This document shows positions 11,189-30,017 of a stretch of DNA of 64,000 nt, piece by piece (position 1 is the first letter of the stretch; the number at the start of each line of letters is the position of its first letter). The position numbers and the translations under genes were made by a program. The DNA comes from Lentibacillus halodurans. GTDB lineage: Bacteria > Bacillota > Bacilli > Bacillales > Amphibacillaceae. The notes beneath the pieces are model-generated. The model ran no database searches and had not been told where the DNA came from. It was given only the letters and a program-made list of their open reading frames with translations. The stretch covers positions 62,001 to 126,000 of the forward strand of contig NZ_FOJW01000005.1 in the NCBI RefSeq assembly GCF_900112045.1, given 5' to 3'.

Positions 11189-11189
11189 C

Positions 11190-14890: not shown

Positions 14891-14914
14891 CCAGAATCTG
14901 AAAGGGTGATAGAG

Positions 14915-15967
14915 ATGAGATCCCTTAATCTTTATGATAAACAGGATATACGATTTGAAGAATCAGCTGAACCTGTGATCGAACATGCAGATGACGTGTT
15001 GATTAAGGTAAAAGCTGTCGGGATTTGCGGTTCTGACATTTCACGCTACAAAAAATTGGGACCATATGTAAAAGGGATGACATTCGGACACGAGTTTTCA
15101 GGTGAAGTGGCAGCGGTTGGCAATGGTGTAGAAAGCGTTAAAGCAGGTACCCGTGTTGCCGGTTGTCCGACATTTTGCTGCGGTGAATGTGAAAGCTGTC
15201 AAAAAGGCGAACTATCCCGTTGTGAAAACCTGCATGTTACGGGCGCATGGCTTCCAGGTGCCTATGCGGAGTATGTAAAACTGCCTGCTAAAAATATTAT
15301 CCCGCTTCCGGATAATGTCGATTACGACACCGCTGCACTTGTCGAACCTTCTGCGGTAGTGGCACATGGCTTTTACCGCACGAGCATCCAGCCTGGTGCT
15401 GAGGTGGCCATTATGGGATGCGGCAGTATTGGCTTGCTTGCTGTGCAATGGGCCAAAATCTTTGGTGCCAAAACGGTGTATGCGATTGATATTGACGACA
15501 CTAAATTGGAAGTCGCCAAGCAAGTTGGAGCAGATGTGCTGATTAATTCATTAGAAAAACCGGCACATGAACAAATTAAGCTGCATACCAACGGCAAGGG
15601 TGTCGATTTAGCTGTTGAATCAGCGGGATCCCCCGTTACATCTGCGCAAGTATTTGCACTGCCGAAAAAAGGCGGCGAAGTCGTCTTCATGGGCATTCCA
15701 TATGCAGACATTCAAATGGAGCGTTTCTATTTTGAACGAATTGTCCGCAATGAACTGCGTGTGCTTGGATCCTGGAACGCCATTTCCTCACCATTCCCTG
15801 GAAAAGAATGGAGTTCTACCGTCCACTATATGAGCACAGGCCAAATCAATGTGAATCCAATGATCTCCCATCGACTGAATTTGCAGGAGGGGCCGGAAAC
15901 GTTTGATCATTTAATTAATGGGAAGGGCTCCTATGTGAAAGTTTTGTTTTATCCTGAAGTAGGATAG
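14915..15967 (+). CDS. gatD: zinc-dependent dehydrogenase, galactitol-1-phosphate 5-dehydrogenase-like (GatD family)
   Basis: A 350-residue medium-chain dehydrogenase: zinc ligands in GICGSDISRYKKLG and FGHEFSGEV, four structural cysteines in CCGECESCQKGELSRC (about residues 89-104), and nucleotide-binding MGCGSIGLLAVQ near 170. The C-terminal run LGSWNAISSPFPGKEW is typical of GatD-like proteins, which oxidise galactitol 1-phosphate to tagatose 6-phosphate. ATG 14915 is preferred to GTG 14906, which lies inside the ribosome site AAAGGGTGAT. It is the last gene of the operon and is followed by a terminator. The exact polyol phosphate is not known. Confidence 0.83.
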   Translation: MRSLNLYDKQDIRFEESAEPVIEHADDVLIKVKAVGICGSDISRYKKLGPYVKGMTFGHEFSGEVAAVGNGVESVKAGTRVAGCPTFCCGECESCQKGELSRCENLHVTGAWLPGAYAEYVKLPAKNIIPLPDNVDYDTAALVEPSAVVAHGFYRTSIQPGAEVAIMGCGSIGLLAVQWAKIFGAKTVYAIDIDDTKLEVAKQVGADVLINSLEKPAHEQIKLHTNGKGVDLAVESAGSPVTSAQVFALPKKGGEVVFMGIPYADIQMERFYFERIVRNELRVLGSWNAISSPFPGKEWSSTVHYMSTGQINVNPMISHRLNLQEGPETFDHLINGKGSYVKVLFYPEVG

Positions 15968-15981
15968 GGAAAAATAAAGTG

Positions 15982-16008
15982 AGCGCCCTAAGAGGGCGCT
16001 TTTTTTGT
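15982..16008 (+). terminator. rho-independent terminator of the galactitol-type operon
   Basis: AGCGCCCT pairs with AGGGCGCT across a 3-4 nt loop and is followed by a run of seven T. Confidence 0.92.
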
Positions 16009-16020
16009 TTTAAAGGACTG

Positions 16021-16083
16021 TTGACGCAGGCTGAAACTCGCTTTATGATAGGTTACAAAGGTAAGTTTAAATAACAAATGTAA
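16021..16083 (+). promoter_or_regulatory. sigma-A promoter with 31-bp SorC-type operator (site 1)
   Basis: TTGACG at 16021 and TATGAT at 16044 are 17 bp apart. Three bases later, the 31-bp operator spans 16053-16083: left half TTACAAAGGTAAG, 7-bp middle, right half AACAAATGTAA. The same layout recurs at four other promoters in the window. A repressor bound here would block transcription start, so the SorC gene just downstream is probably autoregulated. Confidence 0.82.
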
Positions 16084-16118
16084 CCTTACCGTAGCAAACT
16101 AAGGAAAAGAGCGATCGT

Positions 16119-17066
16119 ATGTTAAGCTGGGAAGAACGTCGGTTAATGGTGAAAGTGGCCAAACTATATTATTTTGAAGGGTGGACACAGGCGCAAATTG
16201 CTGAGAAAAATAATGTGTCACGCCCTGTGATCTCAAAACTACTGAACAATGCAAAAAAAGAAGGATTAGTTGAGATTTACATTAAAGATGAAACAGTGCA
16301 TACAGTTGATCTTGAGCAAAAACTCGAGAAGATGTATGAGCTTGACGGTGTGATGGTTGTCTCAACTGCCGGTTATGAACCGGTAATGGCAAAACGGCAG
16401 TTGGGTAAAACAGCTGCGGCGTATGTAAGTAAAAATATACAGGATGTAAGTAACTTGGGCATTTCCTGGGGAACGACGCTGTTATCGCTGATTGAGGAAT
16501 ATCCGTATGAACGCAGGGATAATATTCATATTGTTCCGATCGTCGGGGGAATGGGGACGAAGGATGTACATCTTCATTCCAATCAGCTTGCCTTTCATCT
16601 GGCACAAAAGATGAATACATCCTGTTCATATCTTTACGCCCCTGCAATGGTAGAGACGGATGATCTGAAGGAACGACTTGTAAACTCCAAAGATATTTCA
16701 CATGTTCTGGAAAAAGGCCGTAATGTCGATATAGCGCTTGTTAGTGTCGGGAATCCATATAAAAGCTCAACAATGGAGAAAATTGGCTATTTACAGGAGA
16801 GTGATCTCACATCACTAAGTAAAGCAGGTGCGGTTGGCGATATCAGTTCACGTTTCTTTGACGCAGCCGGTGAGGAGATCGACCACCCATTAAACAATCA
16901 GGTTATTGGTCTTAATCTGGAGGAAATAAAAAACATCCCGCAAGTTGTAGGAATTGTGGAAGGTTCCTATAAACTTGATAGTATAGAAGCAGCGCTACGG
17001 GGTGGTTATCTGGATGTACTGATTATTGACGATCAAACTGCCCAAGCGTTAGTTCAGGAATACTAA
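16119..17066 (+). CDS. SorC-family sugar-binding transcriptional regulator (copy 1)
   Basis: A 315-residue SorC/DeoR-type regulator. The helix-turn-helix covers about residues 20-45 (WTQAQIAEKNNVSRPVISKL); the sugar-phosphate-binding domain follows, with GISWGTTLLSL near 115 and IVPIVGGMG near 139. Members such as EryD, SorC, DeoR of B. subtilis and CggR sense phosphorylated sugars. The gene is monocistronic, with its own promoter carrying an operator and a strong terminator 2 bp after the stop codon. It resembles the second regulator at 20058. I infer that it represses the five-operator regulon until a phosphorylated intermediate binds. Confidence 0.9.
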   Translation: MLSWEERRLMVKVAKLYYFEGWTQAQIAEKNNVSRPVISKLLNNAKKEGLVEIYIKDETVHTVDLEQKLEKMYELDGVMVVSTAGYEPVMAKRQLGKTAAAYVSKNIQDVSNLGISWGTTLLSLIEEYPYERRDNIHIVPIVGGMGTKDVHLHSNQLAFHLAQKMNTSCSYLYAPAMVETDDLKERLVNSKDISHVLEKGRNVDIALVSVGNPYKSSTMEKIGYLQESDLTSLSKAGAVGDISSRFFDAAGEEIDHPLNNQVIGLNLEEIKNIPQVVGIVEGSYKLDSIEAALRGGYLDVLIIDDQTAQALVQEY

Positions 17067-17132: not shown

Positions 17133-18176
17133 TCACACTTGAGAGGGTTTTACAACACATTTCAGTCCTTCCTTGGCAAGAGCTGTTTGAAATGCTTTGT
17201 CTGTCTTCTCCAGTGGGAATGTGTGCGTGATAAAGGCTGAAAAATCGAGCAATCCATTGTCAATCCACTTAACGGCTTCCATATGGAGCTGACGCGGTGC
17301 ACCGTGTGTTCCGACGAGTTTCAATTGCTTATAAATAATATGGTTCGTATTGATTGGATTTTCTGTCACCGGTTTGATCCCTGCAAAATAAAGGACCTTT
17401 CCGGTTGTTTTTGCAATTTCAAGTGATTCCCGCTGTACTAGGGCAGAAGGTGCTGTGACAATGACTGTATCGGCTCCTAGGCCGTTTGTTTCGTCGCTGA
17501 TTCTTTCTGCAGTATCCGTTAGAGATGGATCAATCACCACATCGGCACCGCATTCCTTTGCTTTATGCTGTCGTGCTGCGGATCGCTGGACGGCAATCAC
17601 ATTGGCAGCCCCCATTCTTTTTAATGCGGCAATATACATACACCCGATAGCACCTGCCCCATAGACAACAGCCGTTTCCCCCGGCTTGGCATCCACTTCC
17701 TCAAGTCCGCTCAGCACACATGAAAATGGTTCTGATAAACTGGCAAGCTCGTAGGATGTTGTATCGGCGATTTTTTGGATAGATCCATTTTGCACAAATT
17801 GTTTTGGCAGGACAACATATTCGGCAAAGCCGCCATCAACCTGATATCCCATTGAATGTCCTTTTACGCAATGGTGTCCCATGTTTTGCTGGCAATAAAT
17901 GCATTCACCGCATGGGATATGGGCTCCAAGGGTTACCCGATCGCCAGGTTTGAACCGGTTCACATGATCACCTGTGTCAACTACTTCACCGGCAATTTCA
18001 TGACCGATCACACGCGGATAATGAATACGATCGTCACCATGGTTATAAATCCGGAGATCTGATCCGCATACACCGATTGCGTGAACCTTTAGTAATATTT
18101 CGTCCAGATTAATGGCCGGATAGGAACGTTCCTGTAATTCCAGTTGCTGTTTTCCTGTAAGAACAGCTGCATGCAT
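17133..18176 (-). CDS. zinc-dependent polyol dehydrogenase, sorbitol/L-iditol dehydrogenase-like
   Basis: A 347-residue medium-chain dehydrogenase with catalytic zinc residues in GVCGSDLRIYNHGD (Cys near 37) and IGHEIAGEV, structural cysteines in CGECIYCQQNMGHHC (about 92-106), and nucleotide-binding VVYGAGAIGCM near 170. It is the second gene of a two-gene operon, 19 bp after the GlpD-like gene and under the same operator. It probably oxidises a free or phosphorylated polyol, or a deoxy-polyol, made or imported by the neighbouring system. It is clearly a different paralog from the dehydrogenases at 12923 and 14915. Confidence 0.87.
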   Translation of the reverse strand: MHAAVLTGKQQLELQERSYPAINLDEILLKVHAIGVCGSDLRIYNHGDDRIHYPRVIGHEIAGEVVDTGDHVNRFKPGDRVTLGAHIPCGECIYCQQNMGHHCVKGHSMGYQVDGGFAEYVVLPKQFVQNGSIQKIADTTSYELASLSEPFSCVLSGLEEVDAKPGETAVVYGAGAIGCMYIAALKRMGAANVIAVQRSAARQHKAKECGADVVIDPSLTDTAERISDETNGLGADTVIVTAPSALVQRESLEIAKTTGKVLYFAGIKPVTENPINTNHIIYKQLKLVGTHGAPRQLHMEAVKWIDNGLLDFSAFITHTFPLEKTDKAFQTALAKEGLKCVVKPSQV

Positions 18177-18195
18177 AAATTTCCCCCCTTAAAGT

Positions 18196-19851
18196 CTATT
18201 CACCTTCAGCAAATGTTAATGCTTTTTCTGTAAGATATTGGATATGTGCGGTTTGTTTTTTCGTCGTTTGCTCATCCCATTGAAGGGCTGCTTTCATTTC
18301 GTTGGTTGCCGTATTCATTGTCCGTTTCACTTTATCAAGATCGAATAGCAGATAACTTGTTCGGCGATCATAAAAATCAGCAAGCGTTGCAGCCATTTCA
18401 TGCTCAACCGTATATCGTATCTCAGCAGCAATATTGCGTAGTTCATCGTCGTCAAACCGGTCATCATAATCCATGATCTGTTTTAAAAGTTCTTCGGTAT
18501 TTGTACCATATCGCAAAACAAATTCATTGATGACATTTTTAGTTAATTGTAAGTGACTGTATTGCTCATGCAACTGGTTGACAAGTGCTGCCAGATCTTG
18601 TTCTGAAGCGAAATGACCGCCAGATAGTTTAACGTGATCAGTATTTGAGGAAGTTGGTTTCTGATTATCCCGCTTTTCAATATACTGGAGCACGCGTTCC
18701 GCCATTTTCCGGTAGCCGGTCAATTTTCCCCCTGCAATGGTTATGAGCCCGCTGTCCGATTCAAAAATTTCATCATGACGTGAAAGTTCGGACGGGGCAT
18801 CGTCATCTTTTCCGATAAGTGGCCGGATACCTGCCCAGCTGGATGTGACATCATCAATGCTTAAATCAAGTGACGGAAAGATATCATGCAGACAGCCAAG
18901 CAAATAGTTGACTTCAGATTTATGAACATGAATATCGTCCATATTTTCGTTGTAAATCGTTTCCGTTGATCCGACATATGTTTTGTCATCTTTAGGAATG
19001 ACCGCAATCATACGCCCTTTGTGCTGGAAGTAAATAGATGATGCAACAGGTAATGATTGATAGCTAAAGACAATATGAATTCCTTTGGCATGTACCATAT
19101 ATTTTCCGTTGATCGGGCGGTCTTTCTGCCGGACTTTATCCACCCACGGCCCAGCCGCATTGACAATATGCGCGGCCTTGATGGTAAATGTTCGTTCGTC
19201 AACATGATCTCTTGCCACGACACCTTTCACCTGGTTATGCTCATCCTGAAGAAAATCGGTCATTTCGGCATAATTGAGGATAGAAGCTCCTTTTTCGGCG
19301 GCTGTTTTGGCTGCTTCCAGTGTCAACCGGCTGTCATCTGTACGATATTCTACATATATGCCGCTCCCCTTAATGGTTTTCGGATTAAATAATGGCTCAT
19401 GCTTCAAGGTTTTTCGTTTACTATAGATTTTATGGCGTTCTTCTTTTCGCACGCCGGCAAGGCGGTCATATAAGGTAAGCCCGGCTTTTAATGTGGCTAA
19501 GTTGTATGATTCTTTTTTGATAATCGGAAAGTTCATGTTAATTGGATACACGAGATGGCGTGCATTATTATAAACAATCGCCCGTTCGCGACCTGTTTCT
19601 TTTACAACCGGGAAATCAAATTTTTGCAGATACTTCAGTCCCCCATGAATTAATTTTCCGGAGCGGCTGCTTGTTCCGGATGCAAAATCCTTTCGTTCAA
19701 TCAGTGCAATCTTCAGACCCCGAGTGGCGGCATCCAATGCAATTCCGTTTCCGGTGATGCCTCCCCCAATAACCAATACATCAAAATAGTCATTTTCCAG
19801 TTCGTTTACGATAGAGGCACGATTTAAAGAAGAAAATATTCTGCTGCCCAT
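18196..19851 (-). CDS. FAD-dependent glycerol-3-phosphate dehydrogenase family protein (GlpD-like)
   Basis: A 551-residue flavoprotein of the usual GlpD length. The FAD-binding dinucleotide motif is DVLVIGGGITGNGIALDAA (about residues 24-42), followed by the GlpD signature ASGTSSRSGKLIHGGLKYL; a second block (AGPWVDKVR) and WAGIRPLIG also match. GlpD proteins pass electrons from glycerol 3-phosphate to menaquinone. The Brucella enzyme EryB, which oxidises erythritol phosphate, is a homolog and is likewise encoded with a SorC-family regulator. No glycerol facilitator or kinase is beside it, and its operator is shared with a polyol PTS. A polyol-phosphate substrate other than glycerol 3-phosphate is therefore plausible. 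Confidence 0.87.
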   Translation of the reverse strand: MGSRIFSSLNRASIVNELENDYFDVLVIGGGITGNGIALDAATRGLKIALIERKDFASGTSSRSGKLIHGGLKYLQKFDFPVVKETGRERAIVYNNARHLVYPINMNFPIIKKESYNLATLKAGLTLYDRLAGVRKEERHKIYSKRKTLKHEPLFNPKTIKGSGIYVEYRTDDSRLTLEAAKTAAEKGASILNYAEMTDFLQDEHNQVKGVVARDHVDERTFTIKAAHIVNAAGPWVDKVRQKDRPINGKYMVHAKGIHIVFSYQSLPVASSIYFQHKGRMIAVIPKDDKTYVGSTETIYNENMDDIHVHKSEVNYLLGCLHDIFPSLDLSIDDVTSSWAGIRPLIGKDDDAPSELSRHDEIFESDSGLITIAGGKLTGYRKMAERVLQYIEKRDNQKPTSSNTDHVKLSGGHFASEQDLAALVNQLHEQYSHLQLTKNVINEFVLRYGTNTEELLKQIMDYDDRFDDDELRNIAAEIRYTVEHEMAATLADFYDRRTSYLLFDLDKVKRTMNTATNEMKAALQWDEQTTKKQTAHIQYLTEKALTFAEGE

Positions 19852-19879
19852 ACTTCATCCTCCATTTGAGTGTTTATGT

Positions 19880-19952
19880 TTACAAAAGTAACATAATAAA
19901 TCATTTGTAAAACTTGTAATTTTAGTATATTCCTTTTAAAATATTAAGTCAA
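19880..19952 (-). promoter_or_regulatory. sigma-A promoter with 31-bp operator (site 2)
   Basis: On the minus strand TTGACT (19947-19952) and TATACT (19924-19929) are 17 bp apart. The operator at 19880-19910 follows downstream: plus-strand halves TTACAAAAGTAAC and ATCATTTGTAA, 31 bp overall. It controls the GlpD-like gene and the zinc dehydrogenase. Confidence 0.82.
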
Positions 19953-20057: not shown

Positions 20058-21026
20058 TTGACAATAACCATGAAAGATCGAAATCTGATGGAGAAGGTTT
20101 CCAAACTCTATTATCTTGAGGGATGGACGCAAACCCAGATTTGTAAAAAAGTAGGCTTGTCAAGGCCGATCATATCAAAGTTACTGAAGCAGGCGAAAGA
20201 GAAAAATATCGTTGAAATCTATATTAAAGATGAATCCGTCCATACAGTAGAACTGGAGCGTCTTCTGGAAAAACAGTATAACCTTCAGGAAGCTGTAGTT
20301 GTTTCCGGAGCAAATAAAGGAACGGAAATGGTACGGCGAAATATGGGGCGGGCAGCATCGGGTTATTTGTCAAAAAGATTGAGCCAGATTCAAACATTGG
20401 GAATCTCATGGGGCAAATCTATCTACACATTAGTCGAGGAATTTCAGAGTATTGAATATCCGCACATTCATTTGGTGCCATTAGTTGGCGGTATGGGCCA
20501 GGAATTTGTGGAATATCATTCAAATCAATTATCTTTTCAGCTTGCGCAACAGCTGAATGCCAGTTCTTCTTACCTGTATGCACCTGCAATAGCTGATAAT
20601 GCTGATTTGAAACAAAAAATTGTTCAATCCAAGGATGTGGCGTCCGTACTGGAAGAAGGCAAACAAGTTGATCTTGCAATTGTGGGTGTTGGTGGTATGA
20701 CCCGACAGACAACAGCAATTGAAATGGGCTACCTGCGTGATAAGGATATTGATTCGTTAAAAGAAGCCGGAGCTGAAGGGGATCTTAATTCATCATTTTT
20801 TGATGTCAACGGTCGGGAGGTTAACCATCCGATCAATGATCGAATCATTGGTACCAGTCTTGACGAAATTAAAGAAATCCCAGAGGTAATGGCAATTGCT
20901 GAAGGGAAGCATAAAGTGAACAGTCTGCATATCGCATTGAAGACGGGAATTGTTAACGTGCTGGTTACGGATGATCAAACGGCAGAGGGTTTATTAAGAA
21001 ATTGTTCGAGATATGAACAAATTTAA
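20058..21026 (+). CDS. SorC-family sugar-binding transcriptional regulator (copy 2)
   Basis: A 322-residue paralog of the regulator at 16119. It has near-identical N-terminal wording (KVSKLYYLEGWTQTQICKKVG), the same sugar-binding block GISWGKSIYTLVEE and HLVPLVGGMGQ, and the same C-terminal pattern ending in a DDQTAEGLL-like motif. The TTG at 20058 is favoured because AGGGGGA lies 7 bases upstream; ATG 20070 would be 19 bases away. Unlike copy 1, no 31-bp operator lies before it, so it may be constitutive. It sits between the divergent GlpD-like operon and the glucitol-type PTS operon. Whether the two regulators share operators or sense different ligands is unknown. Confidence 0.9.
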   Translation: MTITMKDRNLMEKVSKLYYLEGWTQTQICKKVGLSRPIISKLLKQAKEKNIVEIYIKDESVHTVELERLLEKQYNLQEAVVVSGANKGTEMVRRNMGRAASGYLSKRLSQIQTLGISWGKSIYTLVEEFQSIEYPHIHLVPLVGGMGQEFVEYHSNQLSFQLAQQLNASSSYLYAPAIADNADLKQKIVQSKDVASVLEEGKQVDLAIVGVGGMTRQTTAIEMGYLRDKDIDSLKEAGAEGDLNSSFFDVNGREVNHPINDRIIGTSLDEIKEIPEVMAIAEGKHKVNSLHIALKTGIVNVLVTDDQTAEGLLRNCSRYEQI

Positions 21027-21044: not shown

Positions 21045-21108
21045 TTGACAATCTATTGGAAGCGTTTTATTATGAATTTACAAAAATAATGAATAATAAC
21101 ATTTGTAA
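21045..21108 (+). promoter_or_regulatory. sigma-A promoter with cre-like site and 31-bp operator (site 3)
   Basis: TTGACA (21045) and TATTAT (21068) are 17 bp apart. The operator spans 21078-21108 with halves TTACAAAAATAAT and AACATTTGTAA. A cre-like sequence, TTGGAAGCGTTTTAT (21056-21070), lies between the -35 and -10 boxes and fits WTGNAANCGNWNNCW at all but one fixed position. The glucitol-type PTS operon is thus probably under both specific repression and CcpA repression. Confidence 0.82.
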
Positions 21109-21123
21109 AGGGAGGGACAAAGA

Positions 21124-21522
21124 ATGTGGGGGACATTTATATTCATATTTACTTCGATATGGGCACTTCAGTTTTTATTGACGCATTTTCAGGTGAAACA
21201 CTATCAATCTGAAATTAAGAAGCTCAGCAACAGGGACAACGGCTTTTTAGGAACTGGTTACTATAAAAAACGTTTCGGTACAGGAGCAATTATTGTGCTT
21301 GTATGTGATGAACATTCTCGTATTACAGATGCCAAGATTATGAAGGGGATTACCGTTTTTGCCAGATTCAGAAATATGAAACAACTGGTTGGCATGAAAC
21401 TGGAAGAAAGCAAATTTGTGGATTTCCTGCCGAAAAAAGAACACCTCGCTCTCACTGGTGCGATTGATATGATAAAGAAAGAAATGAATAAACGAAAGGG
21501 GAATGAAGCATGGATTTCTTGA
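21124..21522 (+). CDS. gutM: GutM-like glucitol operon activator protein
   Basis: A 132-residue protein starting with one hydrophobic segment (MWGTFIFIFTSIWALQFLL), then a soluble GutM-type domain (NGFLGTGYYKKRFGTGAIIVLV). GutM is encoded with glucitol/sorbitol PTS genes in many bacteria and is described as an activator of the E. coli gut operon. A membrane-anchored accessory role to the PTS seems equally possible. The ribosome site is GGGAGGG, and its stop codon overlaps the srlA start by 13 bp. Confidence 0.85.
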   Translation: MWGTFIFIFTSIWALQFLLTHFQVKHYQSEIKKLSNRDNGFLGTGYYKKRFGTGAIIVLVCDEHSRITDAKIMKGITVFARFRNMKQLVGMKLEESKFVDFLPKKEHLALTGAIDMIKKEMNKRKGNEAWIS

Positions 21523-22049
21523 TTAAACTGGCAGAAGGTTTTATCGGCATGTTTCAAGAAGGCGGAGATACATTTATGGGCCTGGTAACCGATATTATTC
21601 CTTTGCTGATTGCTTTGATCACTGCTGTAAACGCTTTAATTAAATTCGTTGGTGAAGAAAGGGTTTTCAGCTTTGCCCAAAAATGTACAAAATATTTTTT
21701 CTTAAGATATACGATTTTCCCATTTTTGGCCGTTTTCTTTTTGACAAATCCGATGTGTTATACGTTCGGCCGTTTCTTGCCTGAAAGTAAAAAACCAGCA
21801 TTTTACGATTCGACCGTATCATTTGTTCATCCGGTTACAGGACTTTTTCCGCACGCGAACCCGGCTGAATTATTCGTCTATACAGGTGTAGCAGCAGGAA
21901 TTACGGAGCTTGGATTGTCTACTGGGCCATTGGCATTGCGCTTCCTGCTTGTAGGTATTGTGGTTATGCTGTTAAGGGGCGTTGTGACAGAATTTATTAC
22001 AGCGCGAATGATTAAAAATAAACAGCAGGCTGAAGATATTGCGGCATAA
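21510..22049 (+). CDS. srlA: PTS glucitol/sorbitol-type permease subunit IIC (SrlA)
   Basis: A 179-residue membrane protein matching SrlA/GutA in size and in the block FFLTNPMCYTFGRFLPE (about residues 72-88), followed by FVHPVTGLFPHANPAELF. It is the smaller of the two membrane subunits of the glucitol-type permease. It is translationally coupled to gutM and lies 26 bp before srlE. The known substrate of the family is D-glucitol; related systems in Firmicutes take other polyols, so the cargo here is inferred from the associated enzymes. Confidence 0.92.
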   Translation: MDFLIKLAEGFIGMFQEGGDTFMGLVTDIIPLLIALITAVNALIKFVGEERVFSFAQKCTKYFFLRYTIFPFLAVFFLTNPMCYTFGRFLPESKKPAFYDSTVSFVHPVTGLFPHANPAELFVYTGVAAGITELGLSTGPLALRFLLVGIVVMLLRGVVTEFITARMIKNKQQAEDIAA

Positions 22050-22075: not shown

Positions 22076-23131
22076 ATGAGTGACTATCGTGCAGTAAAGG
22101 TAACAAAGGGTTCCTCAGGTTGGGGAGGACCGCTTATAATTCATCCAAATGACGAAAAAAAATATATTGTTTCAGTAACCGGCGGCGGCATTCATCCGGT
22201 TGCACAGGAAATAGCAGACAAGAGTGGCGGTATTGCGATTGACGGATTTGAGAAATCAGTTGAAAAAGAAAAAATGGCCTGCGCTGTCATTAATTGCGGT
22301 GGTACGGCCAGGAGTGGTGTCTATCCGAAAATGGGCATACTGACGGTAAATGTATTCAGCAATTCGCCATCAGGCCCCCTTGCGAAATTTATCAAGGAAA
22401 CGAATTTTGTATCAGGTGTTGCAGCAGAAAACGTTGAACAAGCCGACAGTTCTTCAGAGGAAAGTCATCCGGAAGTAAAGTCTAATGAACAGGAAAATCA
22501 TACGTCATTACTGGATAAAGATGTTGCCAAACAGAAAAAAGAACAGGCAAAAGAGTCGGTAGCTGCACAGGAAGCAGGAAATGGCAGGAAAAAGAATCCG
22601 GTTAACCGAGTCATTGAAGTGCTTGGTGATAAGGTTGGGAATGTGGTCAGCACCTTTTTCCAGGCTGGCAGGGATACCATTGAAACCGTTATCAAGAACA
22701 TTTTGCCGTTTATGGCGTTTGTCAGTGTATTAATGGGCATTATCAATTATACGGGAATCGGTGATTGGATTGCGAACACAGTAACACCATTGGCGACATC
22801 CCTGATTGGGATGCTGATTCTGTCTTTAATTTGTTCAATACCGGTTATTTCACCATTGCTTGCGCCGGGAGCTGTTATCGCTCAAGTTGTTGGTGTATTG
22901 ATCGGGGTTGAAGTCGGAAAAGGAAATATCCCGCCACAAATGACATTGCCGGCATTATTTGCTATTAACCCGCAAGTAGGGACAGATTTTGTTCCGGTTG
23001 GGCTGACACTTGGGGAAGCAAAACCGGAAACAATTGAAGTAGGTGTTCCGGCTGTTCTTTTCTCAAGGTTAGTGACAGGTCCTGCAGCAGTTGTCATTGC
23101 TTACTTCGCGAGTTTTGGTCTTTATAGTTAA
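22076..23131 (+). CDS. srlE: PTS glucitol/sorbitol-type subunit IIBC (SrlE)
   Basis: A 351-residue fusion. The N-terminal IIB domain (about 1-125) begins [16 protein letters not shown] and carries the probable phosphocysteine in [14 protein letters not shown] charged Glu/Lys-rich linker (about 125-180) joins it to a membrane IIC segment (about 205-351; [39 protein letters not shown]). This is the standard SrlE layout; the linker is longer than in E. coli. Together with SrlA and SrlB it phosphorylates a polyol during entry. The gene ends the operon and a hairpin follows. Confidence 0.92.
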
Positions 23132-23168: not shown

Positions 23169-23211
23169 TTGCAAATCTTTTTACTTATGTTACAATAAAG
23201 AACAAATGTAA
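23169..23211 (+). promoter_or_regulatory. probable promoter overlapping 31-bp operator (site 4)
   Basis: The operator at 23181-23211 has left half TTACTTATGTTAC and right half AACAAATGTAA. A possible promoter, TTGCAA at 23169 and TACAAT at 23191 (16-bp gap), overlaps it. srlB and the SAF-domain gene therefore seem to have their own regulated promoter, separate from gutM-srlA-srlE. Confidence 0.7.
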
Positions 23212-23239
23212 AAAATAAATCGCAATGGAGGAAAACAAC

Positions 23240-23611
23240 ATGACAAATACCTATTATAACGTTAATGTCGTCGAGATTGGTTCTGACGCTTCGTTAATGC
23301 TCGAAGAAAAGATGGTTATCTTGTTTAATAATACCGTCCCTGAAGATCTGAGGAGCATTGCCTTTGTACATGATGGCGGTGAATTGACTGATGAAATAAA
23401 AGCAGGCGATCAGTTGGTCATTGATGGGGACACTTTTGACATTTTATTTGTTGGAGATAAAGTGAATGAAACAATGAGAGATCTGGGCCACGCTACGTTC
23501 CATTTTAACGGGGAAACCATTTCTGATTTGCCTGGCACGGTATGTCTTGAAGACAAGTCAATTCCGCAGATCAGTGAAAACTCAACCATTTCATTTAACA
23601 GACCAAGATAA
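23240..23611 (+). CDS. srlB: PTS glucitol/sorbitol-type subunit IIA (SrlB)
   Basis: A 123-residue IIA protein, the same length as E. coli SrlB. The likely phospho-histidine lies in SIAFVHDGGELTDEI (about residue 44), and VGDKVNETMRDLGHATFHFNG around residue 78 is the family core. The start is ATG 23240 with TGGAGG 8-10 bases upstream; the longer frame from 23225 begins inside that ribosome site. It completes the glucitol-type PTS but sits behind its own operator, in a pair with the SAF-domain oxidoreductase 22 bp downstream. Confidence 0.92.
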   Translation: MTNTYYNVNVVEIGSDASLMLEEKMVILFNNTVPEDLRSIAFVHDGGELTDEIKAGDQLVIDGDTFDILFVGDKVNETMRDLGHATFHFNGETISDLPGTVCLEDKSIPQISENSTISFNRPR

Positions 23612-23633: not shown

Positions 23634-24920
23634 ATGTTAGGAATTAACAGAAAACTAGCGAACCTGGAGGATAAAGGATCATATATTAAGGTCGGGCTTG
23701 TCGGTGCGGGGCAAATGGGAAGAGGAATGATTTCCCAGATTGAAAGCATGAAAGGCATGCGTGTTGTAATCACAGCTGATCTGGCGATTAATAATGTGGA
23801 CAATGCTTATAAAAATGCCGGGATAAACGAATCAGATATCAACGTTACGGATGATTTGAAAGCGGCTCGTGAAGCGGTCTTGCAGGATCAGGTAGTAGCC
23901 ACCAAAGACAGCAAACTGGTGACAGCATTGCCGGAAGTGGATGTTGTTGTGGATGCGACGGGAGTTCCGGATATTGGTGCTCAAATTGCCTGGGACAGTA
24001 TTCTGAACAACAAACATATTGTCATGCTCAATGTGGAGGCCGATGTTACGGTTGGGCCGCTATTGAAAAAAATGGCTGATTCCAGTGGTGTTGTTTACAC
24101 AGGTTCTGCCGGTGATGAGCCAGGTGCGATTATGGAATTATATGATTTTGCCGATGCCATGGGTTTTGAAGTTGTTGCATTAGGTAAAGGGAAAAATAAT
24201 CCATTGAATCTTGAATCAAATCCGGATGTTACTGCTGAAGAAGCAAAGGCGAAAGGATCCAGTCCAAAAATGCTTGCATCATTCCAGGACGGAACGAAAA
24301 CAATGGTTGAAATGAACGCTGTAGCCAATGCAACCGGATTTGCGCCAGACCAGCCAGGCATGCACGGTTTTGAGGGCAAAGTGGCGGATCTCCCTGGTAT
24401 TTTCATAGAAAAAGAAAAAGGCGGAAAGCTGAATCACCGAAAAGTGGTCGATTTTGTCAACGGGGTAGCGCCGGGTGTATTCGCGATCATTGCGTCGGAT
24501 AAAGATGAAGTAAATGCAGAAATGAAGTATTTGAAAATGGGTGATGGACCTAATTATGTACTGTATCGGCCATACCACCTGACAAGTCTGGAAACACCGC
24601 TGTCGATTGCAAAAGCGTACTTTGACGAAGAACCGACAATTGCGCCTCATTATGGCTTGCGGGGTGAAACGGTGGCTATTGCGAAAAAAGACTTGTATGA
24701 GGGGGATTATTTGGACGGAATCGGTGGCTATTCGGTTTATGGCAAGTTACTGAAAGCTGATGAAGCAAAGGCAGATAAAGCTTTGCCGATCGGACTGGTT
24801 GATCGCAATATCAAATTAACCAAAGCAGTCAAGCAAGGTGACGTTATCACCTATGACGCTGTCGAACAAACAAAAGAATCGACTATCTGGAAATTAAGGG
24901 CATTGCAGGATAAGAGTTAA
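23634..24920 (+). CDS. homoserine dehydrogenase-like oxidoreductase with C-terminal SAF domain (COG4091, DRL-like)
   Basis: A 428-residue NAD(P)-dependent oxidoreductase. The Rossmann motif VGLVGAGQMGRGM is at about residues 20-32 and the substrate-domain block GSAGDEPGAIMELYDF near 155. A C-terminal SAF-type segment (about 345-420) reads PIGLVDRNIKLTKAVKQGDV. This layout is COG4091, the family that includes the Brucella DXR-like enzyme DRL, which interconverts 1-deoxy-xylulose 5-phosphate and 2-C-methyl-erythritol 4-phosphate. The family is broad, so that reaction is inference here. Pairing with srlB suggests it acts on the PTS product. It has a TAAGGAGTGAG ribosome site and ends about 170 bp before a terminator. 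Confidence 0.85.
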   Translation: MLGINRKLANLEDKGSYIKVGLVGAGQMGRGMISQIESMKGMRVVITADLAINNVDNAYKNAGINESDINVTDDLKAAREAVLQDQVVATKDSKLVTALPEVDVVVDATGVPDIGAQIAWDSILNNKHIVMLNVEADVTVGPLLKKMADSSGVVYTGSAGDEPGAIMELYDFADAMGFEVVALGKGKNNPLNLESNPDVTAEEAKAKGSSPKMLASFQDGTKTMVEMNAVANATGFAPDQPGMHGFEGKVADLPGIFIEKEKGGKLNHRKVVDFVNGVAPGVFAIIASDKDEVNAEMKYLKMGDGPNYVLYRPYHLTSLETPLSIAKAYFDEEPTIAPHYGLRGETVAIAKKDLYEGDYLDGIGGYSVYGKLLKADEAKADKALPIGLVDRNIKLTKAVKQGDVITYDAVEQTKESTIWKLRALQDKS

Positions 24921-24927
24921 AGTGGAA

Positions 24928-25055
24928 TCGACCGGCTAGCCATGTACGGAATAGACTGCACTGAAGGAGATAAAGGAACCAAGACGACCGTTGGAAGTCG
25001 ATGTTGACTTATCGTATAGGTGAGGAAGTTTTGCTAGTCGCTGGATATGGTTTTA
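24928..25055 (+). other. possible structured RNA in the 303-bp gap after the SAF-domain gene
   Basis: No gene is visible in this stretch. CGGCTAGC near 24934 can pair with GCTAGTCG near 25036 (8 bp, one G-T pair), enclosing about 95 nt that contain a local hairpin AAGTC/GACTT. This could be a folded untranslated RNA or the decayed end of an element; it matches no riboswitch I recognise. The rest of the gap holds a terminator and the next promoter. Confidence 0.25.
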
Positions 25056-25089
25056 AAAGAGAGTGAAATTTAACAAGGTAATTTATAGA

Positions 25090-25117
25090 AGTCTCTGGTT
25101 AATATCAGGGGCTTTTT
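25090..25117 (+). terminator. rho-independent terminator between the SAF-domain gene and the dehydrogenase complex
   Basis: AGTCTCTG pairs with CAGGGGCT (two G-T pairs) over an 8-nt loop, followed by TTTTTCT. It separates the srlB transcript from the E1-E3 operon. Confidence 0.75.
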
Positions 25118-25146
25118 CTAAAGCTTGATTAATAGATTGATTTAAC

Positions 25147-25208
25147 TTGACCCGATCAAGAAAACGGTTTACAATAATTACAAACGTAACAATTAAGAAC
25201 AAATGTAA
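25147..25208 (+). promoter_or_regulatory. sigma-A promoter with 31-bp operator (site 5)
   Basis: TTGACC (25147) and TACAAT (25170) are 17 bp apart; two bases later the operator (25178-25208) has halves TTACAAACGTAAC and AACAAATGTAA. Its right half is identical to sites 1 and 4. This places the whole dehydrogenase complex in the same regulon as the polyol PTS. Confidence 0.85.
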
Positions 25209-25223
25209 AAAGGAGTGATCATA

Positions 25224-26213
25224 ATGGAATTGACAAAAGATGTGAAGCTCGTGCCTGATGTCAGTCAGGAAAAATTAGTAGATTTATATAAACAAATGTG
25301 GACGATACGGTTTTTTGATGAAAAAGTCGATGAATTTTTTGCGAAAGGGATGATCCACGGTACAACCCATTTGGCAGTCGGGCAGGAGGCAAGTGCTGCC
25401 GGGGCATGTGCGCTGCTTAACATAGAAGACAAGATAACCAGTACACACCGCGGGCACGGTCATTGCATTGCCAAAGGTGCAACCGCTGACAAAATGATGG
25501 CGGAATTATTCGGCAGAACAACCGGTTACTGCAAAGGAAAAGGTGGTTCGATGCATATTGCTGACATTGACATCGGTAACTTGGGTGCAAACGGCATCGT
25601 TGCAGGCGGTATCCCGCTTGCTGTCGGATCGGCATTGACGGCACATATGAAAAAACAAAGCTATGTGACAGTCTGCTTTTTCGGGGATGGTGCTACAAAC
25701 GAAGGAAGTTTCCATGAGGCGGTCAATCTGGCATCCATATGGAAGCTGCCGGTTATTTTTGTTTGTGAAAATAATCAATATGGTATGTCCGGATCCGTGA
25801 AAGAAATGGTGAATGTTGAACATATCGCTGAACGTGCAGATGCATACGGTATCCCCGGTGAAGTGGCGGACGGAAACGATATTGTGGATATGATGAACAA
25901 AACACACGATGCGATTGAACGTGCACGCAGCGGTGAAGGCCCGACACTGATTGAAGCAAAAACGTATCGCTGGAAAGGCCATTCAAAAAGTGACGCGAAG
26001 AAATACCGCACACGTGAAGAGGAGCAGGAATGGAAGGCAAAGGACCCGATCAAACGGTTCAAAAATGTGCTTGTAGAGGCTGGTATTTTAACGGAAGAAA
26101 AGGCTGAGGAAATCCGAAAAGATGCCAAACAGGAAATTGAAAATGCGGTTGAATTTGCAGAAAACAGCCCAATGCCGACCGAAGACGACTTGCTGACAGA
26201 TGTTTATGCATAG
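25224..26213 (+). CDS. thiamine diphosphate-dependent dehydrogenase E1 alpha (acetoin dehydrogenase AcoA-like)
   Basis: A 329-residue E1 alpha subunit. The thiamine diphosphate motif starts at GDGATNEGSFHEA (about residue 154) and ends at CENNQYGMS about 30 residues later. STHRGHGHCIAKG near 77 and HIADIDIGNLGANGIVAGG near 112 are typical of acetoin and acyloin dehydrogenases rather than pyruvate dehydrogenase. ATG 25224 follows AAAAAGGAGTGAT. Acetoin dehydrogenase cleaves an alpha-hydroxyketone, passing an acetyl unit to lipoyl-E2 and releasing an aldehyde. Its setting beside a polyol PTS suggests a phosphorylated acyloin as substrate (inference). Confidence 0.88.
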   Translation: MELTKDVKLVPDVSQEKLVDLYKQMWTIRFFDEKVDEFFAKGMIHGTTHLAVGQEASAAGACALLNIEDKITSTHRGHGHCIAKGATADKMMAELFGRTTGYCKGKGGSMHIADIDIGNLGANGIVAGGIPLAVGSALTAHMKKQSYVTVCFFGDGATNEGSFHEAVNLASIWKLPVIFVCENNQYGMSGSVKEMVNVEHIAERADAYGIPGEVADGNDIVDMMNKTHDAIERARSGEGPTLIEAKTYRWKGHSKSDAKKYRTREEEQEWKAKDPIKRFKNVLVEAGILTEEKAEEIRKDAKQEIENAVEFAENSPMPTEDDLLTDVYA

Positions 26214-26225
26214 GAGGGAACCACG

Positions 26226-27209
26226 TTGAGAGAGATAACTTATATGGAAGCAGTGCGTGAAGCGATGAGTCAGGAAATGCGCAAAAATGAAGACGTCTTT
26301 ATTTTGGGAGAAGACATTGGCGTATATGGTGGTGCTTTTGGTGTTACACGAGGCATGATCGAGGAATTCGGCCCGGAGCGTGTCCGCAATACACCCATCA
26401 GTGAATCCGGAATTGCCGGGGCATCGGTTGGTTCAGCACTGACGGGAATGCGCCCAATAGTTGAACTGCAATTTTCCGATTTCATTACGATTGCGATGGA
26501 CCAAATGGCTAATCAGGCGGCCAAAATCCGTTACATGTACGGCGGTAAGGGCAAGGTGCCGATGGTATTGCGTACGCCGAGCGGATCAGGTACAGGGGCT
26601 GCTGCACAGCATTCACAAAGCCTGGAAGCATGGGTGACGCACGTGCCGGGGCTGAAGGTGGTCCAGCCATCGACAGGCTATGATGCAAAAGGATTATTGA
26701 AAGCAGCGATCGATGATGATAATCCGGTAATTTTTTACGAACATAAAACCTTGTACAAAACGAAATCCGATGTACCGGAAGAGCCATACAGCATTCCACT
26801 AGGCAAAGCTGATGTGAAACGCGAAGGAACAGATGTCACGATTGTCGCAACAGCTGTCATGGTACAGCGTGCACTCGATGCGGCGGCGGAACTGGAAAAT
26901 GAGGGCATCAGTGCTGAAGTAATTGATCCGCGCACACTGGTACCGCTTGATGAGGAAACAATCGTAAACTCCGTTGCCAAAACCGGACGTGCAGTTGTTG
27001 TTCACGAGGCAGTAAAACGCGGCGGATACGGCAGTGAAATTGCAAGCATGATTGCGGAAAGTGATGCGTTTGATTTTCTCGATGCGCCCATCAAACGCTT
27101 AGGCGGTGCGCCTTCTCCGGTACCATACAATCCGGAACTAGAAAAAGCTCACGTACCGCAAGTGCCGGTGATCATTCAAGCCGCAAAAGAAACGTTAATC
27201 AAGGCATAA
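26226..27209 (+). CDS. thiamine diphosphate-dependent dehydrogenase E1 beta (AcoB-like)
   Basis: A 327-residue E1 beta subunit with the classic blocks [19 protein letters not shown] (about residues 24-42), [21 protein letters not shown] near 58, and [15 protein letters not shown] near 235. It forms the alpha2-beta2 E1 with the preceding gene, 12 bp upstream. The TTG at 26226 is preceded by TAGGAGGGAA, which makes it the most likely start. Confidence 0.9.
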
Positions 27210-27224
27210 GGGGGTTGGTTCATA

Positions 27225-28610
27225 ATGGCTAAGGAAGTATTTATGCCGAAGCTCAGCAGTACGATGGAAGTCGGTACACTCCTGCAATGGTTCAAAGCGG
27301 AAGGCGATCCGGTTGAAGTTGGGGAACCGTTATTCGAAATTATGACGGATAAAATTAATATTGAAGTGGAGTCGTATGAAGAAGGTGTATTGTTAAAGCG
27401 TTATTATGATGTTGATGAAGAAATCCCGGTAAATGCTGTGATCGGCTATGTCGGCGAAGAAAATGAAGAAGTGCCTGAGGAGCCACCTGCCGCTGATGGA
27501 GAGGCTGACGACGGTGCGATCTCGCAGGCTGAAGGTGGGCGCAAGTATACACCGTCGGATGTGCCGACAGCAGTGGCCCCCGGTACAGACGGAACGCCGG
27601 CTGCTGCAGTTTCAGGGGCAGAAAAAGCGCCGGCTGATGCTGACGGCAAAGTACGCGCAACACCTGCGGCTAGACGCGTCGCCCGTGAACAAAACGTCGA
27701 ATTGGGATCTGTTAAAGGATCCGGGCCAAAAGGACGTGTTCACGAGCAAGACGTGAAAGACGCACTTGACAGTACGAAAGCCACCCCGCTTGCCGGAAAA
27801 ATTGCCGGGGATCAGGACGTTGATTTGTCACAAGTTGAAGGATCGGGCCCTCATGGAAAAGTGCGCAAAGCAGATGTGATGCAGCATACCGCTGCATCGG
27901 CACAGGTACAGTTGTCTGAAGATACTGAGCGCATCAAGCTAAAAGGCTTGCGCAAAGCAGTAGCGGACAAAATGGTTCAGAGCACCAGCACGATTCCGCA
28001 TGTCACGCTCACAAGCGAAGTTGATATGACGCATGTAATCGACGTCCGGAAGTCCTTGCTGCCGATTATTGAAAAACAAACCGGCTACAGACTGTCCTAT
28101 ACCGAAATTTTAATGAAAGCAACGTCCCAGGTTCTGGAAGCACATCCGCGTGTCAACGCATCACTGATCGATCACGAAATTGTCCTCAATAAATCGGTGA
28201 ATATCGGATTGGCTGTAGACGTGGAAGATGGATTGATTGTGCCATCTGTTAAGGAAGTGAACCATAAAGGTTTGGCAGAATTGACTGAAGTCAGCAAAAC
28301 AGTGGGCAAAAAAGCACGAGACAATCAATTGACGCCAGCTGAAATGACCGGGAGCACGTTCTCGATCAGCAACTTGGGCATGTATGCAGTTGATGGATTC
28401 ACGCCGATCATCAATCCGCCGGAAACAGCGATTCTAGGTGTCGGACGTATTGTCGAAAAACCAGTCGTTGTCGATGGCGAGGTTGAAGTGCGGCCAATGA
28501 TGGTACTCAGTCTGTCATTCGACCACCGGGCAATAGATGGAGCACCAGCTGCAGCATTCCTGACTGATTTGAAAGAGCGGCTGGAAAATCCATACGGCCT
28601 GTTGATATAA
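27225..28610 (+). CDS. dihydrolipoamide acyltransferase E2 with two peripheral-subunit-binding domains
   Basis: A 461-residue E2. One N-terminal lipoyl domain carries the lipoyl lysine in MTDKINIEV (about residue 43). A Glu/Ala/Pro-rich linker leads to a first binding domain (TPAARRVAREQNVELGSVKG, about 145-178). A second, similar segment (TPLAGKIAGDQDVDLSQVEG, about 186-217) lacks the paired arginines of the first. The catalytic domain ends with SFDHRAIDGAPAAAF (about 430-444), including the HxxxDG motif. The acyl group is transferred to CoA. The duplicated binding domain is unusual and may alter E1/E3 loading. It lies 15 bp after E1 beta. Confidence 0.9.
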   Translation: MAKEVFMPKLSSTMEVGTLLQWFKAEGDPVEVGEPLFEIMTDKINIEVESYEEGVLLKRYYDVDEEIPVNAVIGYVGEENEEVPEEPPAADGEADDGAISQAEGGRKYTPSDVPTAVAPGTDGTPAAAVSGAEKAPADADGKVRATPAARRVAREQNVELGSVKGSGPKGRVHEQDVKDALDSTKATPLAGKIAGDQDVDLSQVEGSGPHGKVRKADVMQHTAASAQVQLSEDTERIKLKGLRKAVADKMVQSTSTIPHVTLTSEVDMTHVIDVRKSLLPIIEKQTGYRLSYTEILMKATSQVLEAHPRVNASLIDHEIVLNKSVNIGLAVDVEDGLIVPSVKEVNHKGLAELTEVSKTVGKKARDNQLTPAEMTGSTFSISNLGMYAVDGFTPIINPPETAILGVGRIVEKPVVVDGEVEVRPMMVLSLSFDHRAIDGAPAAAFLTDLKERLENPYGLLI

Positions 28611-28619
28611 GGGGTGAAC

Positions 28620-30017
28620 ATGATGAAAACGTATAATCTCGCAATTATCGGCGCAGGCCCAGGCGGTTATGTCGCAGCCATCCGGGCAGCAAAAGAAGGC
28701 TTGAGTGTCGCCCTTGTGACTGGAGGAGACCTCGGTGGGACTTGCCTCAACAGGGGCTGTATCCCATCCAAAACAATGCTGAAACATGCTGAAGTAATTG
28801 AGCATATTAAAGACGCAAAGACATATGGCATTACCGTAAACGATTTTTCCTTTTCCATCAAGGATATGGTTGACCGGAAACATAAAGTTGTCAACACATT
28901 GAAGAATGGCATCAAAAGCCTGATGAAACAAAACAAGGTTGATGTCTATCAAGGCTATGGGCATATAGCAGAAGATAAAACCGTGACGATCGAAAATGGT
29001 GGCAGTTTGGACGGTTTGGAGACAATTCAAGCTGACAATGTGATACTGGCAAACGGGTCCAAACCGTTTGTACCGGAGCTGCCGGGTATTGAAGATGTTG
29101 ATTATTATACGAGTGATACGATTTTTAATATCGATGACGTGCCAGAGCATCTCGTCATTATGGGCGGTGGTGTCATCGGACTTGAGATTGCCTGTATTTT
29201 CAACAGTTTGAATACGAAAGTCGAAATTGTCGAAATGGCTGACCGGATTTTGCCTGGCGAGGATCCGGATGCGTCGGATTTTTTACGGCGTGAGCTTGGT
29301 AAAAAAGGCATTGGAATTCATACAAATGCTAAAATTACTGGTATCCGCAAAGACGATCAGCAAAAAGCCGTCGAGTTTGAGGCCGGGGATGGCAGCAAGA
29401 GCATGATTGAAACGGATAGTGTGCTCGTTGCCGTCGGGCGGACACCTAATTTGACCGGCATTGAAAACTTAGGAGTCCATTTTGACGGCAGATTCGTAAA
29501 AGTCGATCAGAGATTCGAGACATCCATTGCCGGTATCTATGCGGTTGGTGATTTGATTGGTGGATATCAGCTGGCACATGCGGCAAGTGATGAAGGAATT
29601 CGGGCGGTTAACCATATTTTAGGTGAAGCTAATCCTCAGGCGGAATCCATTATTCCACGCTGTGTCTATACTTTCCCGGAAATAGCCAGCGTTGGCATTA
29701 CAGAAGTCCAGGCAAAAGAAAAAGGCTACAACGTCAAAACGAAAAAAGTGGACATCGCGGCCAATGGAAAAGCCATTGCAGCAGGAGAAACAAGCGGTTT
29801 TATGAAATTGATTGCTGATGACAAATACGGCGAAGTGCTCGGTGTCGTCATGGTCGGCTCCCATGTCACCGAAATGATCAGCCAGGCAACATCCTACATG
29901 CATCTTGAAGGAACAGTTGACGAGATTGACAGTATGGTATTCCCTCACCCAACCGTTTCCGAATCACTGGGTGAAGCGGGGAGTGCGTGGCTTGAGAAAG
30001 GGATACATTATAGTTGA
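28620..30017 (+). CDS. lpdA: dihydrolipoyl dehydrogenase (E3)
   Basis: A 465-residue flavoprotein disulfide reductase: FAD motif IIGAGPGGYVAAIRA at the N-terminus, redox cysteines in GGTCLNRGCIPSK (about residues 39-51), NAD motif VIMGGGVIGLEIA near 178, a second FAD block YAVGDLIGGYQLAHAA near 305, and catalytic His-Glu in VFPHPTVSESLGE at the C-terminus. It has no attached lipoyl domain. It reoxidises the lipoyl group of the E2 with NAD. ATG 28620, or the adjacent ATG 28623, follows AAGGGG. Last gene of the operon. Confidence 0.93.
   Translation: MMKTYNLAIIGAGPGGYVAAIRAAKEGLSVALVTGGDLGGTCLNRGCIPSKTMLKHAEVIEHIKDAKTYGITVNDFSFSIKDMVDRKHKVVNTLKNGIKSLMKQNKVDVYQGYGHIAEDKTVTIENGGSLDGLETIQADNVILANGSKPFVPELPGIEDVDYYTSDTIFNIDDVPEHLVIMGGGVIGLEIACIFNSLNTKVEIVEMADRILPGEDPDASDFLRRELGKKGIGIHTNAKITGIRKDDQQKAVEFEAGDGSKSMIETDSVLVAVGRTPNLTGIENLGVHFDGRFVKVDQRFETSIAGIYAVGDLIGGYQLAHAASDEGIRAVNHILGEANPQAESIIPRCVYTFPEIASVGITEVQAKEKGYNVKTKKVDIAANGKAIAAGETSGFMKLIADDKYGEVLGVVMVGSHVTEMISQATSYMHLEGTVDEIDSMVFPHPTVSESLGEAGSAWLEKGIHYS

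Follow-up and report, generated by a model that had tools for sequence, protein, structure and literature searches.

A candidate regulon for the catabolism of 2-C-methyl-erythritol around a DRL/DXR-II family oxidoreductase in Lentibacillus halodurans

We analysed a 64,000-nucleotide stretch of the Lentibacillus halodurans genome (contig NZ_FOJW01000005.1, positions 62,001 to 126,000; hereafter the window, whose own positions are used below), in which the gene for an oxidoreductase of the DRL/DXR-II family (COG4091) is clustered with genes for a glucitol-type phosphotransferase system (PTS) and for a thiamine-dependent E1-E2-E3 dehydrogenase complex. The genome measures 3.67 Mb, is rated 99.95% complete and belongs to the same genus as one of our comparison genomes (G068), whose locus L147 gives the same identities as Lentibacillus persicus L012 for the compared genes, except for one gene cut at the end of L147. 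The genes run in the order SorC-type regulator, gutM-srlA-srlE, srlB-DRL and E1 alpha-E1 beta-E2-E3, with a glpD-like gene and a zinc-dependent alcohol dehydrogenase (Zn-ADH) gene divergent from them. An earlier note on this DNA had described the pairing of srlB with the COG4091 oxidoreductase, the gutM-srlA-srlE group and a full E1-E2-E3 set, and the open reading frames (ORFs) and Pfam matches confirm this arrangement:

17133..18176, minus strand: Zn-dependent alcohol dehydrogenase, encoded second in the divergent glpD-adh pair (ADH_N, ADH_zinc_N; below every NCBIfam cut-off listed)
18196..19851, minus strand: GlpD-like FAD oxidoreductase (42% identity to the genome's other GlpD)
19879..19911, unstranded: perfect copy of the 33-bp operator palindrome, between the glpD and regulator genes
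20058..21026, plus strand: SorC/DeoR-type sugar-binding transcriptional regulator (PF04198, 256 bits)
21077..21109, unstranded: operator, perfect 33-bp palindrome upstream of gutM
21124..21522, plus strand: gutM (PF06923, 95 bits; below its NCBIfam cut-off)
21510..22049, plus strand: srlA, glucitol-type PTS IIC (NF049923 and TIGR00821 above cut-off)
22076..23131, plus strand: srlE, glucitol-type PTS IIB/IIBC (NF049924 above, TIGR00825 below cut-off)
23180..23212, unstranded: operator copy with 4 mismatches upstream of srlB
23225..23611, plus strand: srlB, glucitol-type PTS IIA (PF03829, 121.7 bits; below both NCBIfam cut-offs)
23634..24920, plus strand: DRL/DXR-II family (COG4091) oxidoreductase, proposed methylerythritol 4-phosphate (MEP):NAD+ oxidoisomerase giving 1-deoxy-xylulose 5-phosphate (DXP) (Pfam DRL_cat, residues, predicted fold)
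25090..25119, plus strand: hairpin then T run, terminator-like, 3' of the DRL gene (sequence, predicted fold)
25177..25209, unstranded: operator copy with 3 mismatches upstream of E1 alpha
25224..26213, plus strand: E1 alpha of the thiamine-dependent dehydrogenase complex, proposed to cleave DXP (profile matches, tree, residue comparison)
26226..27209, plus strand: E1 beta (profile matches)
27225..28610, plus strand: E2 acyltransferase with a lipoyl domain, two E3-binding stretches and a catalytic domain (Pfam)
28614..30017, plus strand: E3 dihydrolipoyl dehydrogenase (Pfam)

The DRL product scores 228.6 bits against Pfam DRL_cat (cut-off 27) and is identical to Brucella DRL at 174 of 424 aligned residues (41%), and its predicted model (predicted local distance difference test, pLDDT, of 93.5) matches the Brucella DRL structure 3upl with a template modelling (TM) score of 0.96 and a root-mean-square deviation of 1.6 A. 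All seven residues that an excerpt of PMC3847144 names as key to DXR-II (E174, F178, K191, K193, T229, R320 and Y322) are identical in the window protein. Furthermore, six of eight further divergence sites that we compared (35, 46, 47, 64, 118, 121, 250 and 351) are identical as well, the differences being K for Q at site 46 and R for V at site 351. The same excerpt reports DXR-II activity for the DRL family, and we conclude that the window oxidoreductase is a DXR-II family member with predicted activity on DXP and MEP. A quick tree of 96 DRLs places Brucella DRL itself with five Rhizobiales plasmid DRLs (support of 100 in the Shimodaira-Hasegawa-like approximate likelihood-ratio test, SH-aLRT; identity up to 75%), whose genes stand directly before E1 genes.

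Next we consider the cofactor. The second Rossmann strand ends in Asp in the window DRL, whereas Brucella DRL has Ala and then two Arg at this place; an acidic residue at the end of this strand points to NAD rather than NADP. When DRLs are called linked if uptake, E1, fructose-6-phosphate aldolase (FSA) or kinase genes lie nearby, an acidic residue occupies Brucella column 55 in 108 of 111 linked and 9 of 16 unlinked sequences (127 rows; Fisher 1.3e-5, which overstates the case because the rows are related). The window DRL would accordingly be of NAD type and Brucella DRL looks NADP-type, with the direction of the window reaction a likewise indirect reading.

We then asked what such an enzyme could do in this host. 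Genome searches found no match to DXR-I, no GcpE and no DXS above its cut-off (best 80 bits against 466), and the mevalonate (MVA) marker 3-hydroxy-3-methylglutaryl-CoA (HMG-CoA) reductase is present; the window DRL can therefore hardly serve isoprenoid synthesis by the MEP route, and we rejected this function for the host. Scored for GcpE and DXR-I, 66 DRL-bearing genomes (28 chosen by us, 38 from a Bacillota sample) comprise 14 without either marker, 33 with both, 19 with GcpE only and none with DXR-I only. Among the 14 that lack both, HMG-CoA reductase is present in 13 of 13 tested (G314 excluded) and DXS above cut-off in none of 14.

The GcpE-only genomes, 15 of which come from the Bacillota sample with its tally of DRL genes, bear on the substrate. 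Five of them (G107, G320, G411, G451 and G246) have their sole DRL inside a PTS-DRL cluster with FSA; four of these clusters also have E1 genes and the fifth (L099) has an E1 fragment at the contig edge. Having GcpE, no DXR-I and a single clustered DRL, these genomes suggest that, barring some third reductoisomerase, their clustered DRL makes MEP, and hence that linked DRLs act on MEP and DXP. The window genome cannot build isoprenoids with DRL in this way, and degradation is thus the natural reading there. As for the others, G149, G269 and G271 have one DRL each, adjoining FSA or PTS; G185, G219, G296 and G368 have two or three DRL-type genes each; and G096, G111 and G267 have one unlinked NADP-type DRL each. 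Two simple rules were tried and failed on such genomes. NAD-type DRLs are not restricted to genomes that do without DRL for biosynthesis, as the five genomes above and others combine GcpE and the acidic residue with the lack of DXR-I. A biosynthetic role of unlinked NADP-type DRLs held for L120, L122, L131 and L073 (GcpE present, DXR-I absent) and failed for L127, L129 and L130: the three genomes contain DXR-I, and the three DRLs, with Met at residue 229, may be DLO-type enzymes.

The genes around DRL recur with it. We found 74 loci by similarity to the window DRL and scored neighbours within 10 kb at a permissive 60 bits: PTS genes are present in 63, E1 genes in 51 and both in 46, and six loci have no PTS, E1 or FSA in this range. 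The check that the earlier note proposed, whether PTS, COG4091 and an Aco-type complex occur together consistently in other genomes, therefore did not refute its reading, and the link extends outside the Firmicutes. In an evenly drawn Bacillota sample, 39 of 398 genomes have a DRL_cat homologue; for 44 Bacillota DRL genes, the window's included, the neighbours are PTS in 25, E1 in 18 (all 18 with PTS), FSA in 12 and none of these in 13. Approached from the E1 side, 41 genomes of the family yielded seven E1 alphas at least 60% identical to that of the window, five of them with DRL in the available stretch; the other two are L137, at a contig end, and L140. The eight alphaproteobacterial plasmid loci opened (L084-L087, L091 and L148-L150) all have E1 alpha, E1 beta and E2 genes following DRL; L084, L085 and L091 were chosen via E1 matches and five via DRL, and about 100 of 111 plasmid records with a DRL match lie outside this selection. 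DRL also adjoins E1 in a Chloroflexota metagenome-assembled genome (Leptolinea, L072) and in Candidatus Hakubella (Actinomycetota, L065).

The uptake genes beside this core change from locus to locus. We found an Srl-PTS with its own enzyme I in L085, L148, L149 and L150, an ATP-binding cassette (ABC) transporter with a PfkB kinase in L084, L086 and L087, and a major facilitator superfamily (MFS) transporter with an FGGY kinase in L038, the latter two standing beside an Srl-PTS in Priestia L088. A fixed DRL-E1-E2 core with exchangeable uptake has the look of a catabolic pathway.

E1 alpha, E1 beta, E2 and E3 are all present with their domains in the window. Acetoin dehydrogenase converts a methyl acyloin into acetyl-CoA and an aldehyde, which is the reaction wanted here, and the window E1 alpha shares 43-44% identity with an AcoA-like pair (L142/L143, so named from one adjoining sigma-54-type regulator) versus 31-35% with the two further E1s of the genome. 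On a quick tree of 58 E1 alphas, 48 of them DRL-linked, linkage requires 4 changes against 9.3 in shuffles. The window E1 alpha falls in a set of 29 rows, starred in the tree, made up of 27 linked sequences plus L137 and L140, while the AcoA-like pair, the genome's two other E1s and L144 lie outside it. The description of E1 alpha as acetoin-dehydrogenase-like thus fits the E1-E2-E3 make-up and is loosened by an identity of only 43-44% and a place outside the AcoA-like group. As precedents, PMC3424233 reports that mutant, not wild-type, Escherichia coli pyruvate dehydrogenase (PDH) E1 raises cellular DXP about 20-fold, and its reference list includes a 1986 title on 1-deoxyketose formation by pyruvate and acetoin dehydrogenases.

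In some DRL clusters FSA stands beside or replaces E1-E2-E3 (L090, 12916-15575; L096-L116), and transketolase joins FSA in L090, L034 and L110. This suggests a second way of splitting the DRL product. FSA condenses hydroxyacetone and glycolaldehyde to 1-deoxyxylulose, according to an excerpt of PMC8791446. With this chemistry and the PDH and acetoin dehydrogenase precedents, both downstream enzymes, the E1 complex and FSA, fit DXP.

The operons of the window share a 33-bp palindrome, TTTACAAA-N17-TTTGTAAA, whose arms are 17 bp apart. Perfect half-sites occur upstream of gutM (21077-21109) and between the regulator and glpD (19879-19911); they are the sole perfect copies in the 3.67-Mb genome, and no copy with one mismatch was found in the whole genome. 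Weak matches alone carry no meaning: the window has 11 copies with at most 4 mismatches where 10.95 are expected, and the genome 104 with at most 3 mismatches against 98 for the reversed pattern. What gives the weaker copies before srlB and E1 alpha their weight is recurrence: related loci have the element upstream of the corresponding genes. Among 22 such loci that we picked from the 74, it was found (p<=0.05 versus shuffles) upstream of gutM in 19/21 cases, E1 alpha in 15/22, GlpD in 10/14, srlB in 10/21, SorC in 9/35 (some of which use the glpD site in common) and DRL in 2/22, the stretch before DRL being an imperfect control because it is mostly srlB coding sequence. What had been claimed as a 31-bp operator before gutM-srlAE, srlB-COG4091 and E1 does have copies at those places, is better described as the 33-bp palindrome, and is imperfect before srlB and E1 alpha; the copy at 19879-19911 is additional. 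The SorC-type regulator would be the protein that binds this common element and switches the operons. A riboswitch between DRL and E1 alpha was considered and rejected, as Rfam gave no match there and the fold is no better than shuffles (z -0.33); in the related loci this intergenic region is unconserved except for the operator.

We propose that the cluster is probably a regulon for degrading 2-C-methyl-erythritol, or a stereoisomer close to it, via MEP and DXP. The glucitol-type PTS would import and phosphorylate 2-C-methyl-erythritol to MEP. DRL, whose family and active-site residues are observed, would then oxidise and rearrange MEP to DXP in the reverse of the isoprenoid reaction. Finally, judging from its chemistry and its conserved pairing with DRL, the E1-E2-E3 complex would cut the C2-C3 bond of DXP, passing the acetyl group to CoA and freeing glyceraldehyde 3-phosphate. 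The exact stereoisomer is less certain than this core, and 2-C-methyl-D-erythritol is our inferred import. A new pathway built from known families is, we think with good reason, the most economical reading of the core. With somewhat less assurance, we favour a route with swappable uptake, in which GlpD-ADH admits more 2-methyltetrol stereoisomers; it would be spread across Bacillota and Alphaproteobacteria and be represented by single loci in the Chloroflexota and the Actinomycetota. The methylerythritol catabolism suggested in the earlier note is thus partly supported, by the DRL family, the co-occurrence and a host without MEP-route markers; the note was wrong to leave no step over, as GlpD and Zn-ADH lie under the same operator and outside the proposed route. 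Among the top-ranked open-licence PMC results, none dealt with methylerythritol catabolism or with a complex that cleaves DXP, which is no proof of absence.

Several observations weigh against this proposal. The specificity of E1 is unreadable from sequence, acceptance of DXP by the complex is a prediction, and E1 beta passes the NCBIfam cut-off named PDH E1 beta while E1 alpha stays just below that of its best model, PDH E1 alpha (389.9 against 393.85). In the quick tree, DRL-linked E1 alphas do not form the single clade we had considered, as five rhizobial rows weakly join the AcoA-like L142/L143 (SH-aLRT 82, with a long-branch warning). Lys255 of E1 alpha, within a GHS-K-SD loop that we take to line the active site of human PDH E1, may meet the substrate phosphate and is found in 72 of 74 linked sequences; it is a post-hoc hint, since the filter, chosen afterwards, let through five positions in E1 alpha (this one included) and seven in E1 beta, and the comparison was with nine sequences (S, K, R, E, Q, Q, T, S, M), of which two are basic as well. 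Genomes that seemingly need DRL for biosynthesis (e.g. G107, G411) have the acidic cofactor-site residue in their cluster-linked DRLs as well, and the residue is therefore no proof of a catabolic role by itself; the DRLs of G107 and similar genomes fall in a different subclade from the window DRL. E1 is missing within 10 kb in 23 of the 74 loci, some of which stop at contig ends; the Treponema, Alkalibacter and Domibacillus loci lack it although there is space enough, and those opened in Listeria and Ligilactobacillus are PTS-DRL without E1, so DRL may feed other routes. The glpD-adh pair, finally, lies behind a perfect operator copy and is unexplained by the core route.

This last pair leads to the alternative of a different 2-methyltetrol stereoisomer, methylthreitol or the other enantiomer, as the natural substrate of the same core chemistry. 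Cleavage would then yield L-glyceraldehyde 3-phosphate, which Zn-ADH would reduce to sn-glycerol 3-phosphate, to be oxidised by GlpD to dihydroxyacetone phosphate, or GlpD and ADH together would epimerise C3 of the phosphate; both are guesses, and that the two enzymes probably handle another stereoisomer or its product is speculative. Apart from the operator, this alternative draws on GlpD near DRL in 17 of the 74 loci, with ADH in 13, and on the genome having two GlpD paralogues, the window one being 42% identical to the other. GlpD and ADH recur near DRL-E1-E2 in two phyla, both standing there on two rhizobial plasmids (Sinorhizobium meliloti, Agrobacterium tumefaciens), and the Zn-ADH gene is also close to the DRL cluster in some relatives. 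Yet most E1-linked loci have no GlpD inside 10 kb, so the core either does without GlpD or draws on one encoded elsewhere; identity between the rhizobial GlpDs and that of the window is just 26-27%, and stereochemistry cannot be read from sequence. We regard this substrate as unlikely. In our main reading, GlpD and ADH may let the pathway take further stereoisomers.

A common polyol such as sorbitol or erythritol, oxidised as its phosphate by enzymes such as Zn-ADH or the GlpD-like protein beside a neighbouring acetoin or pyruvate dehydrogenase, would suit the glucitol family of the PTS parts, in which IIC, IIB, IIA and GutM all exceed their Pfam cut-offs with GutM and IIA below those of NCBIfam, as well as the PDH-type scores of E1 and the weak matches of Zn-ADH to polyol dehydrogenase models. 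We consider it improbable, since no sorbitol-6-phosphate dehydrogenase was recognised among window ORFs and scanned cluster genes (the rest of the genome was not searched), E1 alpha is closer to the AcoA-like pair than to the genome's other E1s, and DRL-E1-E2 remains joined when uptake genes change. A hydroxymethyl-branched polyol such as apiitol (2-C-hydroxymethyl-erythritol), which DRL would turn into a pentulose 5-phosphate, agrees with the relatives that pair PTS-DRL with FSA and transketolase, fitting a ketose phosphate. It is very improbable, as a pentulose phosphate needs no E1-E2-E3, which would make glycolyl-CoA and is near DRL in 51 of 74 loci, and the activity published for the family, in the excerpt of PMC3847144, is that of DXR-II. 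That DRL serves isoprenoid biosynthesis with the other genes as bystanders would follow family members in other bacteria (same excerpt) and the 19 of 66 GcpE-only genomes; it is contradicted here by the markers of the window genome, besides the 14 genomes that lack GcpE and DXR-I, and we give it next to no chance.

Other observations concern neighbouring DNA and related loci. Upstream, at 8605-17066, ORFs read by eye indicate a second polyol-type cluster with an apparent MtlR-type PTS regulator, PTS IIA, galactitol-type IIC, two Zn-ADHs, a DeoC-like aldolase and a SorC-type regulator, which matches the SorC regulator of the DRL cluster by tblastn in relatives. A Bacillaceae-1 sRNA match lies at 56467-56524 (35.5 against a gathering score of 35). 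The rhizobial DRL cluster L086 is flanked by two pairs of proteins without Pfam match (1243-2521 and 17232-18686), with lipoyl synthase. On Clostridioides difficile plasmid L089, a SorC-E1-E2-E3 group similar to this complex adjoins a PTS and a sigma-54-type regulator, with no DRL in the available stretch.

Methylerythritol is released by plants and formed in aerosols by isoprene oxidation, and a methylerythritol regulon, if true, would supply a fate for it. It would entail a DXP dehydrogenase dependent on CoA and NAD, which would be a new activity. A catabolic role would also explain active DXR-II in bacteria without the MEP pathway, such as Finegoldia magna, for which the excerpt of PMC3847144 reports an active enzyme and found neither other MEP genes nor MVA genes, and Chloroflexus aurantiacus, reported there as active with MVA only. 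The presence of DRL would then be no proof of isoprenoid synthesis, a caution when MEP-pathway drug targets are judged.

Among known systems, the Brucella-type erythritol pathway has tetritol phosphate oxidation and a GlpD-like enzyme (EryB) in common with the proposed route and differs in its isomerases, which DRL and an acyl-CoA-forming complex would replace here. With DXR-II/DRL (Brucella abortus DRL, PDB 3upl, 3upy) the window enzyme has in common the full-length fold, the seven named residues, 41% identity and the family tree; unlike Brucella DRL, it has NAD-type rather than NADP-type cofactor-site residues, lies in a cluster with a polyol PTS and a dehydrogenase, and belongs to a host in which no MEP pathway was seen. 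The glucitol (srl/gut) PTS operon has the same GutM, IIC, IIB and IIA of the glucitol family, whereas here no sorbitol-6-phosphate dehydrogenase was recognised among window ORFs and the cluster genes scanned, DRL adjoins IIA and the regulator is of SorC type. Similarly, the acetoin dehydrogenase complex (AcoABCL) has the same E1 alpha/beta, E2 and E3 make-up, while the window cluster has a SorC-type regulator in place of a recognised AcoR, an E1 alpha 43-44% identical to the AcoA-like pair, and the link to DRL.

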